Assembly (NCBI GenBank): GCA_944383915.1
Contig: CALWRJ010000019.1
Coordinates: forward strand, 1-34,048
Origin: an uncultured Clostridia bacterium
Lineage (GTDB): Bacteria > Bacillota > Clostridia > Christensenellales > UBA1242
Reading direction: 5' to 3'
DNA length: 34,048 nt
The notes beneath the pieces are model-generated. The model was given only the letters and a program-made list of their open reading frames with translations, searched no databases and was not told the DNA's origin. Made by a program: the position numbers and the translations under genes. Shown here piece after piece: positions 24,448 to 32,742 of this stretch (position 1 is its first letter; every line of letters starts with the position of its first letter).

Positions 24448-25587
24448 CTATTCTATTCCTTCAATATCATCAAAAAGTCCAAGTTCGCTAGCGCTGTCGA
24501 AATCAGTTTCAACTTCTTGTACTTGTTTGCTTAATTCCTCTTTTGCGTTAGCAGTTTCGCTCTTAACATCGATTTTCCAGCCCGTAAGACGAGCAGCAAG
24601 TCGCACATTGCACCCTTCTCTGCCGATAGCAAGACTTAATTTGTTATCCGGTACAATAACCCTACTTGATTTTGCGTCTTGATTTATTTCAACACTAATT
24701 ACTTCTGCAGGGCTTAGTGCGTTTGCAATATACTCAAAAACATCGTCACTATAAGGAATGACATCTATTTTTTCGCCGTTTAATTCGTGAATTACGGCAT
24801 TAATTCTTGCACCCCTAGTTCCAACACAAGCGCCAACAGCATCAATATTTGGGTCACTTGCATAAACGCTCATTTTGGTACGATTGCCTGCTTCACGCGC
24901 AATAGACTTTATCTCAACGGCACCAGAAGTGAGTTCTGGAACTTCAAGTTCAAACAATCTACGGACAAATTCTGGAGTAGTACGGCTAACCTGTACAACT
25001 GCACCGAAGTTGCCATCGCGCACGCGTTTTATATAAACTTTAATTCTTTCACCAATTTCTAAAGTTTCGCCAGGAATAATGTCTTTTTCGCTAAGGACAC
25101 CTTCAATTTCTGTACCACTTAATTCTACATAAACATTTTTAGCATCTTTTCTACGAACGATTGCGGTAGTAAGTTGGTCGCCTTTTGCGTTTAACTCTGC
25201 ACTTAAATTTTCGCGTTCGGCTTCTCTTAATCTTTGCATAACGACTTGTTTAGCAGTTTGCGCTGCAATTCTGCCAAAATTCTTTGGTGTAACTTCCTCT
25301 GCAATAATATCCCCAACTTTATAAGACGACTTTATTTGCTTAGCATCTTCAATGCTTACTTCTTTATCTGGGTCATTAACTTCATCAACAACTGTCTTGT
25401 AAGCGTAAACTTTTATCGTTCCTTTTTCTGGGTTTAGTTTAACAGTAGCGCTACGTGCTTCACCAAAATTCTTTTTGTAAGCGCTTACTAATGCACTTTC
25501 AAGAGCAGAAATAAAGAAATCCTTATTTATCTTTTTTTCTTTTTCTAACTGGTCCAACGCCAAAAAGAAATCTTTACTATTTATCAT
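24448..25587 (-). CDS. nusA: Transcription termination/antitermination factor NusA
   Basis: Binds RNA polymerase and nascent RNA, affecting pausing, termination and antitermination. 379 aa, the short Firmicutes form without C-terminal acidic repeats. N-terminal polymerase-binding domain (1-125: FFLALDQLEKEKKINKDFFISALESALVSAYKK), S1 domain (about 130-200), and two KH domains with VGACVGTRGARINAV and KLSLAIGREGCNVRLAARLTGWKIDV. An acidic tail follows. Normally rimP lies directly upstream and is co-transcribed; it is absent, and nusA instead has its own promoter and a structured leader. GGGAG lies about 11 nt before the ATG, inside the loop of a small hairpin. Confidence 0.97.
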   Translation of the reverse strand: MINSKDFFLALDQLEKEKKINKDFFISALESALVSAYKKNFGEARSATVKLNPEKGTIKVYAYKTVVDEVNDPDKEVSIEDAKQIKSSYKVGDIIAEEVTPKNFGRIAAQTAKQVVMQRLREAERENLSAELNAKGDQLTTAIVRRKDAKNVYVELSGTEIEGVLSEKDIIPGETLEIGERIKVYIKRVRDGNFGAVVQVSRTTPEFVRRLFELEVPELTSGAVEIKSIAREAGNRTKMSVYASDPNIDAVGACVGTRGARINAVIHELNGEKIDVIPYSDDVFEYIANALSPAEVISVEINQDAKSSRVIVPDNKLSLAIGREGCNVRLAARLTGWKIDVKSETANAKEELSKQVQEVETDFDSASELGLFDDIEGIE

Positions 25588-25594
25588 TTAATTG

Positions 25595-25645
25595 AAAACT
25601 CCCGTAGTTTTATTAAAAGTTATGAGTGGGTTGCCCCACTCATAA
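25595..25645 (-). promoter_or_regulatory. Structured nusA leader: GCAA-capped hairpin plus hairpin holding the RBS
   Basis: On minus, TTATGAGTGGG and CCCACTCATAA (25645-25635 / 25630-25620) form an 11-bp perfect stem closed by the tetraloop GCAA (GNRA type). It begins about 6 nt after the expected transcription start. It is followed by ACTTTTAAT, a weak U-tract. Then AAAACT / AGTTTT (25611-25606 / 25600-25595) form a 6-bp stem whose loop and edge contain the CGGGAG ribosome binding site. This could be a terminator for upstream transcripts, a 5' stability hairpin or a translational control element of nusA. Confidence 0.6.
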
Positions 25646-25658
25646 GTCTTTATATTTT

Positions 25659-25687
25659 ATTTTATCATAGTTTACCGCAAAAATCAA
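25659..25687 (-). promoter_or_regulatory. Sigma-A promoter of nusA operon
   Basis: Read on minus: TTGATT (25687-25682), 17 nt, TAAAAT (25664-25659), in the 127-nt gap between the polC-derived gene and nusA. Confidence 0.75.
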
Positions 25688-25714
25688 TAGTTTACACATA
25701 AATTACACAAATTT

Positions 25715-27265
25715 TTATATAAGTTTTATAAAAACTTTTGCAGTAGCATACGCATCAGCAAGTGCGCGGTGAGCATTTTCAAGAGTAATATTTAGTGCAC
25801 GAACCACAGTACCTAGTTTATAGTTACTCAAACTTGGCACTTTATCACGCGCGAGTTTAAGCGTATCAATTTGTTCGTTATTAAATAACAAGCGTAGTTT
25901 TTTCCCGCTATTATCTAAAAATTGGTAGTCAAAGTCAATATTATAAGCACTTAAAACTGAACCAAATGAAAAACGATAAAAATCAGGCAATGCTTGTTCT
26001 AATGTTGGAGCATCTTTAACCATTAAATCATCAATGTGAGTAATTTCTGTAATTTCACGCGGTATAGGTTGTTGTGGGTTAATTAGGGTTTGAAAAGTTT
26101 CGATAATTGAACCTTTTTTTATTTTAACTGCACCAATTTCTATTATCTTACAGCTACGCGCATCAAGTCCTGTTGTTTCAAGGTCAAACACTACCACTGT
26201 ATCGTGATTTACCCAATAAGATGTTTGCTTTTTATTCATACTAAAAAGGTCCATTTGCTCGACTTCGCTTACAGGCTTTGGCGAAACAAAGTAATATTTG
26301 GGGTTAACTTTTCGATAAACATAAACTAATTCCTTTGTGTTAATTTCACAAAAGGACAAACTATTTGCCTTTATATTTACCCTATCTGCATATTTGCTTA
26401 TTACACCACCTACAAGAAGTTGCATTCCCTCTTCAACCTTACTTAATTCGTCAACTTGCTTATCACTCGGGAAAATAACTACATCAATTTTACCACTTAA
26501 ATCGTGTAGAGTAAAAGTAAAGCGCTTTCGCTCCTCTGGCGGTGTGCCTGCCATTTTTGATTTCCGTGTAAAAGTAGATAAAATTGGATTTTCTACAAAG
26601 CCAGCAAGTAAAACACTTTCGCCGTCCTCACCTGAAAGTTTATTGATAAAAGTAGGAGAACCACCTGTATATTTCCCAAAAAAGCAAAGCCCCTCGGTTA
26701 CATCATAATTATTTAACTTTTCCTCTTGCGCAAGACAATCTGCTAGTCCAGTATCGATGTTTTGCTCATTCTCCAAATATTCTTTTAAATCGGCATTACT
26801 TTGCTTTTCTATAAGGCTGATTTGAAAGTCATAAAAGAATTTATGCTTTAAAAAGTTTGCTAATTCAACAGTAAAATTTTTGTTAACTAACACTTGTTTT
26901 GTCATGGGGTCGCAATAAAAATCAATCTGGGCGACTCCGTCATTGTTTTTTATTTGTATATCGTCTTGCTTAAAAACAATACTTAGCGCCTTATAATTTT
27001 GAGCAAAATATTCGTTCACCCTTTTTAGAATTACATCGGCATCAAAACAACTTTTATTAAACTTTACATTAACCAAGCAAACATCATTTAAGTCATCTGT
27101 AATAATTTGCCTAATATTCTTTTTATCGTCATCATTAAGAGGGTTTTTATCGGAATACACGAAATTAATTAGGCATTCGTCATTTTCACCGTTATATACC
27201 ACTTCATCAAGTTTTAAAATATTTTCTGTATAACCCTTTTCTTTTATTTTCTGTAAAGTATTCAA
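25715..27265 (-). CDS. PolC-derived exonuclease lacking PHP and polymerase domains
   Basis: 516 aa in the place where Firmicutes carry polC (rseP side upstream, nusA side downstream). N-terminal domain about 1-190; OB-fold region about 195-310 with FTFTLHDLSGKIDVVIF, which aligns in style with the PolC OB domain. Then DEDDh exonuclease (about 355-516) with ExoI VVFDLETTGL (Asp361, Glu363), ExoII NIDFDYQFL (Asp446) and ExoIII HRALADAYAT (His499, Asp504), all catalytic residues intact. Full PolC is about 1,430-1,450 aa with the exonuclease inserted in the PHP domain. Here no PHP HLHT segment occurs and the protein stops right after the exonuclease. The ~45-residue linker between OB and exonuclease contains EQMDLFS; QMDLF (337-341) fits the beta-clamp motif QLxLF. 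Inferred: a clamp-tethered 3'-5' exonuclease acting in trans or in repair. A full replicase is not in this window. Confidence 0.85.
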   Translation of the reverse strand: MNTLQKIKEKGYTENILKLDEVVYNGENDECLINFVYSDKNPLNDDDKKNIRQIITDDLNDVCLVNVKFNKSCFDADVILKRVNEYFAQNYKALSIVFKQDDIQIKNNDGVAQIDFYCDPMTKQVLVNKNFTVELANFLKHKFFYDFQISLIEKQSNADLKEYLENEQNIDTGLADCLAQEEKLNNYDVTEGLCFFGKYTGGSPTFINKLSGEDGESVLLAGFVENPILSTFTRKSKMAGTPPEERKRFTFTLHDLSGKIDVVIFPSDKQVDELSKVEEGMQLLVGGVISKYADRVNIKANSLSFCEINTKELVYVYRKVNPKYYFVSPKPVSEVEQMDLFSMNKKQTSYWVNHDTVVVFDLETTGLDARSCKIIEIGAVKIKKGSIIETFQTLINPQQPIPREITEITHIDDLMVKDAPTLEQALPDFYRFSFGSVLSAYNIDFDYQFLDNSGKKLRLLFNNEQIDTLKLARDKVPSLSNYKLGTVVRALNITLENAHRALADAYATAKVFIKLI

Positions 27266-27280
27266 GAATTTTCTCCTTTG

Positions 27281-28411
27281 TTAAGTAAATAAATGATATA
27301 AATCTACAAATATTACAAGCGCAAAAAGTATTATAAGCCCTACCATATGGATATATCCTTCGACTTTTCTGTTTATAGGTTTTCCCCGTATCCATTCTAT
27401 CGTAGTAAACACCATTCGCGCCCCATCGAGTGCTGGTATCGGCAAAATATTAAATACTGCCAAATTCGCCGCAATAAAAGGCAAGAATACAAATAGATTA
27501 GCAATATTTTGTTGCGAGTATTCGGCTATTGTAGAAATTGTCGTAAATGGTCCGCCTATATCCGAAAGTCCAACACCGCCAGTTATTAACATCCACAAAA
27601 ATACTAACACTTTCCAAGCAAACGCAGCAGCAAGTGGAACGCACCTGCTAACTGCTTCCACAAAATTATGCTGATAAGGCACAGTTGAAAATCCAACATA
27701 TAAATGCGTTAACTCTTGACCGTCTGCACTTGGTTCTGTATAGACATACATATTAACTAATATTTCTTGCATTTCATCATCGCGTTCGATAGTCATTTCT
27801 AGATTATTGTAGCACTTATAAGTGATATCGTCAATGGTTACAGTTGTGTAATTTTCTTTTTCCTCATCGCTCATACTTAAATAATGTTCATTTAAAAGCG
27901 CATTAGCCGTATTATCTGTAATAAAATCAACCGTTGTATTATCTATTTCGCGAATTATATCATTAGTTTGAATGTTCGTTTGAAAGTCTGGGTCTACTTC
28001 ACTTACTTTTGGGACATCATAACCAAAAGCGATTAGTAAAATAAAAGCAAAAATTATAGCTGAAACAAAGTTAAAAAATACACCACCAAACTGTACAGTG
28101 AGCCTTTTCCAAGGCTTTTGATTGTTAAAAGCACGAGGGTCCGCATCGTCCTCGTCTTCGCCTGCAAACGCACAATAACCACCCAGTGGAATTAGACGAA
28201 TACTAAAAACTTCACCTGATTTTAGTTTTTTCTTAAAAAGGGCTTTACCGAAGCCGATTGAAAACTCGTCAATTTTAAAACCAAGCCATTTACCAAAAGT
28301 ATAGTGACCAAACTCGTGAATAGTAATCATAACAAGCAAGACTAAAATAGCAAGTAAAACATATCCAATAGTAGTCATTACACTTGCAAAACTAGCGAGC
28401 ATCGCTATCAC
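27281..28411 (-). CDS. rseP: RseP/RasP site-2 intramembrane zinc protease (M50)
   Basis: Membrane metalloprotease that cleaves transmembrane segments, e.g. anti-sigma factors and signal-peptide remnants. 376 aa. The zinc motif HEFGH (residues 32-36) lies in the first TM segment. A PDZ-like region follows (about 120-240: VSEVDPDFQTNIQTNDIIREIDN). The third metal ligand is in NILPIPALDGARM within a later TM segment, and GGPFTTIST is also conserved. The start is GTG, supported by GAGGGGG 7 nt upstream; an ATG three codons in is further from it. In Bacillus dxr lies between cdsA and this gene; here cdsA is 66 nt away and dxr is absent. Confidence 0.94.
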   Translation of the reverse strand: MIAMLASFASVMTTIGYVLLAILVLLVMITIHEFGHYTFGKWLGFKIDEFSIGFGKALFKKKLKSGEVFSIRLIPLGGYCAFAGEDEDDADPRAFNNQKPWKRLTVQFGGVFFNFVSAIIFAFILLIAFGYDVPKVSEVDPDFQTNIQTNDIIREIDNTTVDFITDNTANALLNEHYLSMSDEEKENYTTVTIDDITYKCYNNLEMTIERDDEMQEILVNMYVYTEPSADGQELTHLYVGFSTVPYQHNFVEAVSRCVPLAAAFAWKVLVFLWMLITGGVGLSDIGGPFTTISTIAEYSQQNIANLFVFLPFIAANLAVFNILPIPALDGARMVFTTIEWIRGKPINRKVEGYIHMVGLIILFALVIFVDLYHLFT

Positions 28412-31722: not shown

Positions 31723-32742
31723 TTATTCAGATTTTGCTGTTTCGTCAGCAACAACTTCAGTTTTTGCCTTTGTAGCTCTTTTTGCAGGAGCTTTTTTAGG
31801 CGCGGTTTCAGCCTCTTTTTCTTTTGCTACAGTTTTCTTTGTTGTAGTTTTCTTTTCGGCAGGTTTTTTCTCAGCTTTTTCAGCCTTTTCAACTTTTTCA
31901 GTTTTCTCTGCCTTTTCTGCTACTTCTTTAGTTTCTTTAACTTCTGCTTGTGCTTCAGTCTTTTCCTCTTTTTTCTTGAAAACCTTTTTAGCAACGATTT
32001 CGCCTTCGGCATTAACCGTTTCACTAATTTCGCTGTCATCGTCACGAGTTACTTCGGGAACATTTCCGCTCTTTGCTTCGATAACCGCATTTGCGATTGT
32101 TTCAGCTATTAAGCGAACGGCTCTTATTGCGTCATCATTTCCTGGAATTACTACATCTACTAGTGTTGGGTCGCAGTTTGTGTCAACAAGACCAACTACT
32201 GGAATACCTAGAGCGCGTGCTTCTTTTACCGCGATATGCTCTTTTTTAAGGTCTACTACAAAAAGCAATCCTGGAAGCGCAGCCATATCCTTGATACCGC
32301 CAAGATTCTTTTGAAGTTTGTCGCGTTCCGCTCTCAATTTTAATACTTCTTTCTTAGGGAAAAATTCAAATTCGCCTGTTTGCTCCATTTTGTTAAGTTT
32401 GTTAAGTCTTTCAACGCGAGCACGAATAGTCTTAAAGTTTGTCAAAGTACCGCCGAGCCAACGAGTGTTTACATAGTACATTCCACAACGCTCAGCTTCC
32501 TCTTTAATTGCATCGCTTGCTTGTTTCTTTGTGCCGACAAAAAGCACTGTCTTACCCTTTGAAACCATATCGCGAACATAGTCGTATGCTTGTTGAACAA
32601 GTACAACTGTTTGCTCAAGGTCAATAATGTGTGTGTCATTACGAGCACAGAAAATGTATTTACTCATTTTAGGGTTCCATTGTCTGGTAGGGTGTCCAAA
32701 CTGAACGCCAGCCTCGAGTAACTGTTTTATTGAAATTGCCAC
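31723..32742 (-). CDS. rpsB: 30S ribosomal protein S2 with long Lys/Glu/Ala-rich tail
   Basis: Structural protein of the 30S subunit, essential for S1 binding in many bacteria. Residues 1-224 are a normal S2 (start [102 protein letters not shown]). Residues about 225-339 are a low-complexity extension: first acidic, then alternating Lys/Glu/Ala blocks (such as [16 protein letters not shown]), and last a Lys/Ala/Pro-rich stretch ([12 protein letters not shown]). The start is GTG with GGAGG 9 nt before it. It is the first gene of rpsB-tsf, behind a ~125-nt leader. Confidence 0.97.

Follow-up and report, generated by a model that had tools for sequence, protein, structure and literature searches.

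The 34,048-nucleotide window analysed here, by which we mean the whole stretch at positions 1 to 34,048 of contig CALWRJ010000019.1 (assembly GCA_944383915.1), comes from an uncultured Clostridia bacterium of the order Christensenellales and contains a gene for a 516-amino acid protein related to the polymerase PolC. A first-pass annotation, made from the letters of the window, had described this protein as the N-terminal domain (NTD), OB fold and exonuclease of PolC and nothing more, and Pfam (OB at residues 246–303, E 2.3e-8; RNase_T at residues 358–512, E 3.3e-36), hhalign and profiles of the PHP and polymerase regions all agreed with that description. Reading the sequence directly, we found the complete DEDDh set (Asp361, Glu363, Asp446, His499 and Asp504) at the positions claimed, and the pentapeptide QMDLF at residues 337–341, between the OB fold and the exonuclease. 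Profiles of the N-terminal half of the PHP domain (PHP-N) and of the part that follows the exonuclease matched 34 of 34 PolC rows and 0 of 96 stand-alone rows, and both parts are absent from the protein, as had been noted. A six-frame search with the same profiles, covering the window and the loci of 20 relatives, was empty even at E values as high as 10, and the relatives' own frames, of ~500–600 amino acids, bore no sign of the missing PHP and polymerase in the same frame. An assembly deletion or a frameshift was ruled out by the recurrence of the architecture across many genomes and by the lack of any remnant.

The gene is the positional orthologue of polC, minus PHP and polymerase. Its NTD comprises two alpha/beta subdomains, of which the second (residues 73–156) is similar to a type II KH fold, and it is homologous to the PolC NTD (hhalign probability 96.7 in local and 97.9 in global alignment). 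When full PolCs of the class were searched with a profile of the stand-alone family, NTD-OB and exonuclease were matched separately inside single frames. The best solved relatives by sequence were PolC exonucleases, and PolC structure PDB 9qpc aligned to residues 193–516 of the model over 264 residues with a root-mean-square deviation of 18.5, a high value because the two domains are placed differently. Of the curated models, TIGR01405 (PolC) matched the exonuclease only, at model positions 178–354 of 1211 and with 156.6 bits, far below the 1043 required, while the E. coli-type dnaQ model TIGR01406 was not passed (73.2 bits against 222.7) and the broad model TIGR00573 was (118.6 against 71.5). 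No residues follow the exonuclease domain, so a PolC-style C-terminal motif and an epsilon-type tail are both missing. Sequence profiles found no credible solved relative of the NTD, the best match being a precorrin-2 dehydrogenase at E 0.005. According to PMC3919608, the PolC NTD has been proposed to interact with the clamp loader, and work cited there connects it, in its title, with tau domain V. This tau domain was not among the structural matches listed for our NTD, nor among the listed Foldseek matches (TM-scores <0.4), which is compatible with an NTD-tau relation, taken here from published work.

We compared the surroundings of 20 PolC and 20 stand-alone loci, several of which are cut by contig ends. 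The rseP–nusA setting proposed for the window recurred in its relatives, with rseP at 16, nusA at 15 and both at 13 of the 20 stand-alone loci, and among the PolC loci rseP lay upstream in 17 of 20, nusA downstream in 10 and both in 9. In the window itself the neighbours are presumably rseP and nusA, names that were given in the first-pass annotation and are based on gene order. Most loci of both kinds have ~1 kb between the gene and rseP and ~0.6 kb between the gene and nusA, and in three loci the frames in those gaps look like ispG and rimP; such frames are missing in the window, where the gaps are just 15 and 127 nucleotides.

Our census covered 151 genomes, an even draw from a larger order, and detected the stand-alone protein, in full, reduced or dead form, in 78, PolC in 58, neither in 15 and both in none. 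Counted by family, 16 hold the protein in some form, 17 hold PolC and none holds both. Of these 16 families 13 have the full NTD-OB-exonuclease architecture, and the other three (f17, f20 and f30) have only dead or reduced forms. On the PolC side 54 of the 58 genomes pass the TIGR01405 cut-off, and the remaining four (G149, G169, G182 and G226) hold fragments of 785–921 bits on separate contigs; on the other side 69 of the 78 were found by search, including dead f20 forms in G141, G207 and G252, and nine were added from the nusA neighbourhood (five dead f20, three degenerate f17 and one f30). Within the window's own family, 109 of 119 genomes matched, a count that includes an unrelated exonuclease in G002 and four genomes with the NTD-OB part only. 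Loss of the gene in G002, which belongs to the same genus, was unsupported, and the locus was probably not assembled there, since nusA was not found either. A class-wide search (118 genomes, 113 of them outside the order) returned no full stand-alone architecture outside the order among the matches listed, and some of its shorter frames (618 amino acids in G336; 894 in G366) seem to run off their contigs. Profile matches in named records were mostly from uncultured Clostridia, some of them apparently of rabbit, ruminant and chicken gut.

Within the window's family there are genera with a reduced protein and others where it was not found, as would be predicted of a decaying polC relic without selected function, but we regard such a relic as scarcely credible: a frame of ~510–600 amino acids is kept open in 13 families, the catalytic residues and Gln337 are invariant in a 25-row alignment and mostly kept in the larger one, the ribosome-binding site is strong, and PHP-N and the post-exonuclease part are cleanly absent.

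An exonuclease tree placed a single branch between 96 stand-alone and 34 PolC rows (Shimodaira-Hasegawa-like approximate likelihood ratio test, 99). With two outgroup rows included, the stand-alone rows thinned to 56, and L105x and L077 omitted as long branches, the split between 56 stand-alone and 35 PolC rows was again recovered (96/94), and stand-alone forms and PolC stood together against the two other DEDDh rows (99/94). The stand-alone forms fell beside all sampled PolCs, that of T. maritima included (PolC 94/78), a placement in favour of a stand-alone form that is ancestral or as old as PolC, with PolC arising by insertion of such an exonuclease into a polymerase. However, the root is unsure, one outgroup row being very long-branched, and a clade of the stand-alone forms with the order's own PolCs was not rejected (approximately unbiased test, p-AU 0.951; the constrained tree outscored the free quick search, so the quick tree was not optimal). 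Moreover, the full stand-alone form occurs in one order only among the matches listed, and there in the neighbourhood that polC has in relatives with full PolC, and we consider such an origin very improbable. The most likely history, judged from these comparisons, is a single loss of PHP and polymerase, in an ancestor of roughly half the families sampled from the order, although the exonuclease tree is not rooted securely enough to prove the direction of change. The PolC of Christensenella grouped with family f11 (99/97), in agreement with an assignment of the order to Christensenellales. In a DnaE tree 18 of the 19 DnaEs from PolC-less genomes fell on one side with a support of 100, the exception being G160, of family f11; L206 was left out, as the frame taken there was not DnaE.

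Conservation of QMDLF among homologues had been named in the first-pass annotation as a point on which its proposal could fail, and the motif was kept. In 93 intact stand-alone rows, Gln occupied column 337 in 88, the relaxed pattern Q..[LIMF][FLM] was present in 87 and Q..[LI]F in 75; rows were deduplicated for identical ends only and many are closely related. Three sequences (L045, L061 and L066) lay outside the main alignment because of a motif filter, possess all five catalytic residues and read QKSLL, QQSIL and QDSLF, and their addition brings the relaxed count to 90 of 96. The residues around the motif vary, except V327 and P329. At the OB-exonuclease linker of PolC, Q..[LI]F was found in 0 of 67 rows and the relaxed pattern in one (two of the 69 PolC rows were without an anchor and unscored, and some end at contig ends). 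Full PolC does carry its clamp motif at the C-terminus, as had been stated (57 of 61 rows). A chance occurrence of QMDLF was ruled out by its conservation among homologues, with the PolC linker as control. QxxLF is described as a general clamp motif (PMC12309361), and an AlphaFold model has residues 337–340 and 343–348 disordered (predicted local distance difference test <50), a predicted disorder which may fit a peptide ligand. The 11 rows with a dead catalytic site kept Gln in eight cases and the full motif in none.

A search of the window's genome for polC, dnaE and dnaQ found a single DnaE and neither a full polC nor a further exonuclease of RNase_T type, in a draft of 1.18 Mb on 23 contigs that is ~97% complete. 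The single match to the polymerase III alpha core is a 1198-amino acid DnaE frame (L192) with an intact PHP proofreading site and a clamp motif of its own, QLTLF, the single RNase_T match is the stand-alone gene, and MutS and the DnaN clamp are present, the latter with a frame at 92865–93224 of contig C10. We call this polymerase DnaE1, a label resting on its PHP site and on rules published for Clostridia (in the parts of PMC3919608 and PMC12926913 available to us), not on a tree. As a separate observation, most DnaEs of PolC-less genomes score lower against PF07733 with longer matches (~780–860 against ~760–780 bases), suggesting, at the level of sequence, insertions in the polymerase core of DnaE in the PolC-less clade.

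Setting out from the observed architecture, neighbourhood, exclusion with PolC, intact catalytic residues, motif conservation and sole DnaE of the draft, we infer clamp binding and activity, and propose with a probability of roughly 70% that the protein is a clamp-tethered exonuclease that proofreads for DnaE1 in trans, in the manner of epsilon. This is proposed because the exonuclease looks active and the clamp motif sits on a flexible tether, and because of the PolC NTD and the precedents of epsilon and B. subtilis. The motif of E. coli epsilon, QTSMAF, lies beside the exonuclease and binds the clamp, raising the effectiveness of the exonuclease, according to PMC3642679, and the data reported in PMC11890065 suggest that the PolC exonuclease of B. 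subtilis corrects errors made by DnaE. In the proposed mechanism the Q-x-x-L-F motif, in a flexible linker ahead of the exonuclease, would bind DnaN, such that the protein would occupy one clamp pocket and DnaE1, through QLTLF, the other, and the exonuclease would remove misincorporated 3' ends from the DnaE1 product in trans. With less confidence, the NTD might anchor the protein on DnaE or on the clamp loader, and single-stranded DNA might be bound by the OB fold. The first-pass idea of a repurposed, clamp-tethered nuclease is thus supported as far as sequence comparison goes, and suggests that in these Clostridia proofreading may have been detached from one polymerase and lent to another.

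If DnaE1 proofreads for itself through its PHP site, the protein could instead be a clamp-held repair or end-trimming exonuclease acting at gaps, recombination ends or lagging-strand 3' ends. We consider this unlikely, as the exonuclease is related to a replicative proofreading domain and lies in the same neighbourhood, and the PolC NTD and OB fold have been retained. The motif does resemble those of replicative polymerases, but it is undecisive here because other clamp-binding proteins use the same one.

Several observations weigh against a proofreader acting in trans. Of 20 DnaE loci from PolC-less genomes, 19 have an intact PHP site (at the remaining one, L206, the wrong frame was taken), and a second proofreader is therefore not strictly needed. 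The C-terminal tail by which epsilon binds the PHP domain of alpha has no counterpart in the stand-alone protein. Five of the 93 intact rows are without the Gln, although the L134 row among them is misaligned and its sequence reads QDNFL, and the joint loss of motif and catalysis, which happened only a few times, is suggestive and does not amount to a tally of independent losses, because the rows share descent and the dead ones come from two families only. Families f20 (L105, L233, L235, L236 and L238–L241) and f17 (L234, L237 and L260) keep the protein with a dead exonuclease site in all 11 rows read. Genus g7 of the window's family has NTD-OB only, in four genomes (L272–L275) whose proteins measure 294–343 amino acids from stop to stop and end past the OB fold, and in the one f30 genome (L269) the NTD and an intact-looking exonuclease are joined by a linker without OB fold or motif. 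For genera g4, g15 and g42, a search of seven genomes and a reading of the nusA surroundings in four of them both failed to find the protein. At the level of the neighbourhood, three 14-kb loci, L074 and L077 with PolC and L110 with the stand-alone gene, have neither rseP nor nusA, and six more 14-kb PolC loci have rseP without nusA. Because lineages with dead, NTD-OB-only and undetected forms exist, proofreading need not be the sole role and the protein can be lost.

Another reading is that of a replisome scaffold, in which NTD and OB fold would organise DnaE1, single-stranded DNA and the clamp loader, with the exonuclease as an optional load. Such a scaffold would account for the persistence of NTD-OB without exonuclease and motif in the four g7 genomes and for the catalytically dead forms kept by f20 and f17, and would suit the role with the clamp loader proposed for the PolC NTD (PMC3919608). 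None-the-less, the DEDDh site is intact in 93 of the 104 rows covering it, which argues that catalysis is under selection in most sampled lineages, and the NTD varies more than the whole protein (mean column identity of 28% against 36%, from separate alignments), leaving the scaffold quite unlikely as the full explanation. Returning to proofreading in trans, we consider that the protein is probably a second, clamp-held proofreader beside the DnaE PHP site, since DnaE keeps that site, and that the tether part seems to have a further role, since some lineages keep NTD-OB without catalysis. Both roles would be joined if DnaE1 worked with a polymerase-stripped PolC as a proofreader-adaptor, with the NTD docking to DnaE1 or the clamp loader, QxxLF holding the second pocket, the exonuclease being handed the 3' end and the docking role outliving catalysis, a tentative picture that we rate at somewhat under even odds.

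The protein shares with PolC the order of NTD, OB fold and DEDDh exonuclease, usually the neighbourhood, and a QxxLF motif, but it is without the PHP domain split by the exonuclease and without the polymerase core (~510 against ~1400 amino acids), and its motif precedes the exonuclease whereas that of PolC is C-terminal. Like E. coli epsilon (DnaQ), it is a separate DEDDh polypeptide with an intact site and, judged by sequence, a clamp motif adjoining the catalytic domain; unlike epsilon it is related to PolC, has its motif N-terminal to the exonuclease, and carries the additional NTD and OB fold. PolCs without the exonuclease insert are reported in PMC3919608, almost all of them from Clostridia and Negativicutes; theirs is likewise a loss of a domain from clostridial PolC but the complementary one, as the protein described here has retained the exonuclease and shed the polymerase. 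Other stand-alone DnaQ-like proofreaders, from mycobacteria and Treponema, are assigned in a 2026 survey (PMC12926913); they too are separate extras in DnaE1 replicators but are not described as PolC-derived in the portion of that survey available. That survey also sought separate DnaQ proteins, in completely sequenced species, but assigned one only when it was closely homologous to a validated DnaQ or gave a confident DnaE-DnaQ model. Both this survey and PMC3919608 recruit genes of the C family through the polymerase region and discard sequences that have none, so that a PolC without polymerase would be passed over in both. Judged by titles and the beginnings of abstracts, we found no report of a PolC-derived stand-alone exonuclease in the open-licence PMC literature.

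Presence in 13 families suggests that the PolC polymerase is dispensable in Clostridia with DnaE1, and bears on the question, raised in the available part of PMC3919608, of the job of PolC in bacteria with both PolC and DnaE1, since these bacteria retained the proofreading end of PolC and discarded its polymerase. The order thus offers a natural separation-of-function experiment, and a small protein with which trans proofreading and clamp sharing could be tested. PolC-less members would presumably also be without the target of PolC inhibitors.

Table 1. Position of the stand-alone gene, its parts and its immediate surroundings in the window.
Feature	Position	Strand	Remarks
Stand-alone PolC NTD-OB-exonuclease gene	25715..27265	minus	516 amino acids, TTG start
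Ribosome-binding site AAAGGAG	27273..27279	minus	7 nucleotides ahead of TTG, read in sequence
N-terminal domain, residues 1–155	26801..27265	minus	
OB fold, ~residues 189–308 (Pfam core 246–303)	26342..26701	minus	
Putative clamp-binding motif QMDLF, residues 337–341	26243..26257	minus	
DEDDh exonuclease domain, residues 355–516 (D361, E363, D446, H499, D504)	25718..26203	minus	
127-nucleotide gap to nusA	25588..25714	minus	promoter-like match 25687–25659, hairpin 25645–25620
rseP (presumed), upstream neighbour	27281..28411	minus	15 nucleotides from stand-alone gene
nusA (presumed), downstream neighbour	24448..25587	minus	

The gap to nusA had been described as 127 nucleotides that hold a promoter and leader and no polC remnant. 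Its length and the absence of a remnant stood, while the promoter came down to one promoter-like match at the frequency of shuffled sequence, as nine such matches were found in the stretch scanned against a shuffle mean of 7.4, so not enriched. The hairpin is present as a perfect 11-bp stem directly upstream of nusA and downstream of the promoter-like site, terminator-like on both strands, and from its position could be a nusA leader or attenuator; an Rfam scan of the window gave zero matches. Elsewhere in the window, positions 31726–32742 encode a ribosomal protein S2 that extends ~115 residues past its Pfam domain, and positions 547–2100 encode a class I lysyl-tRNA synthetase (PF01921).
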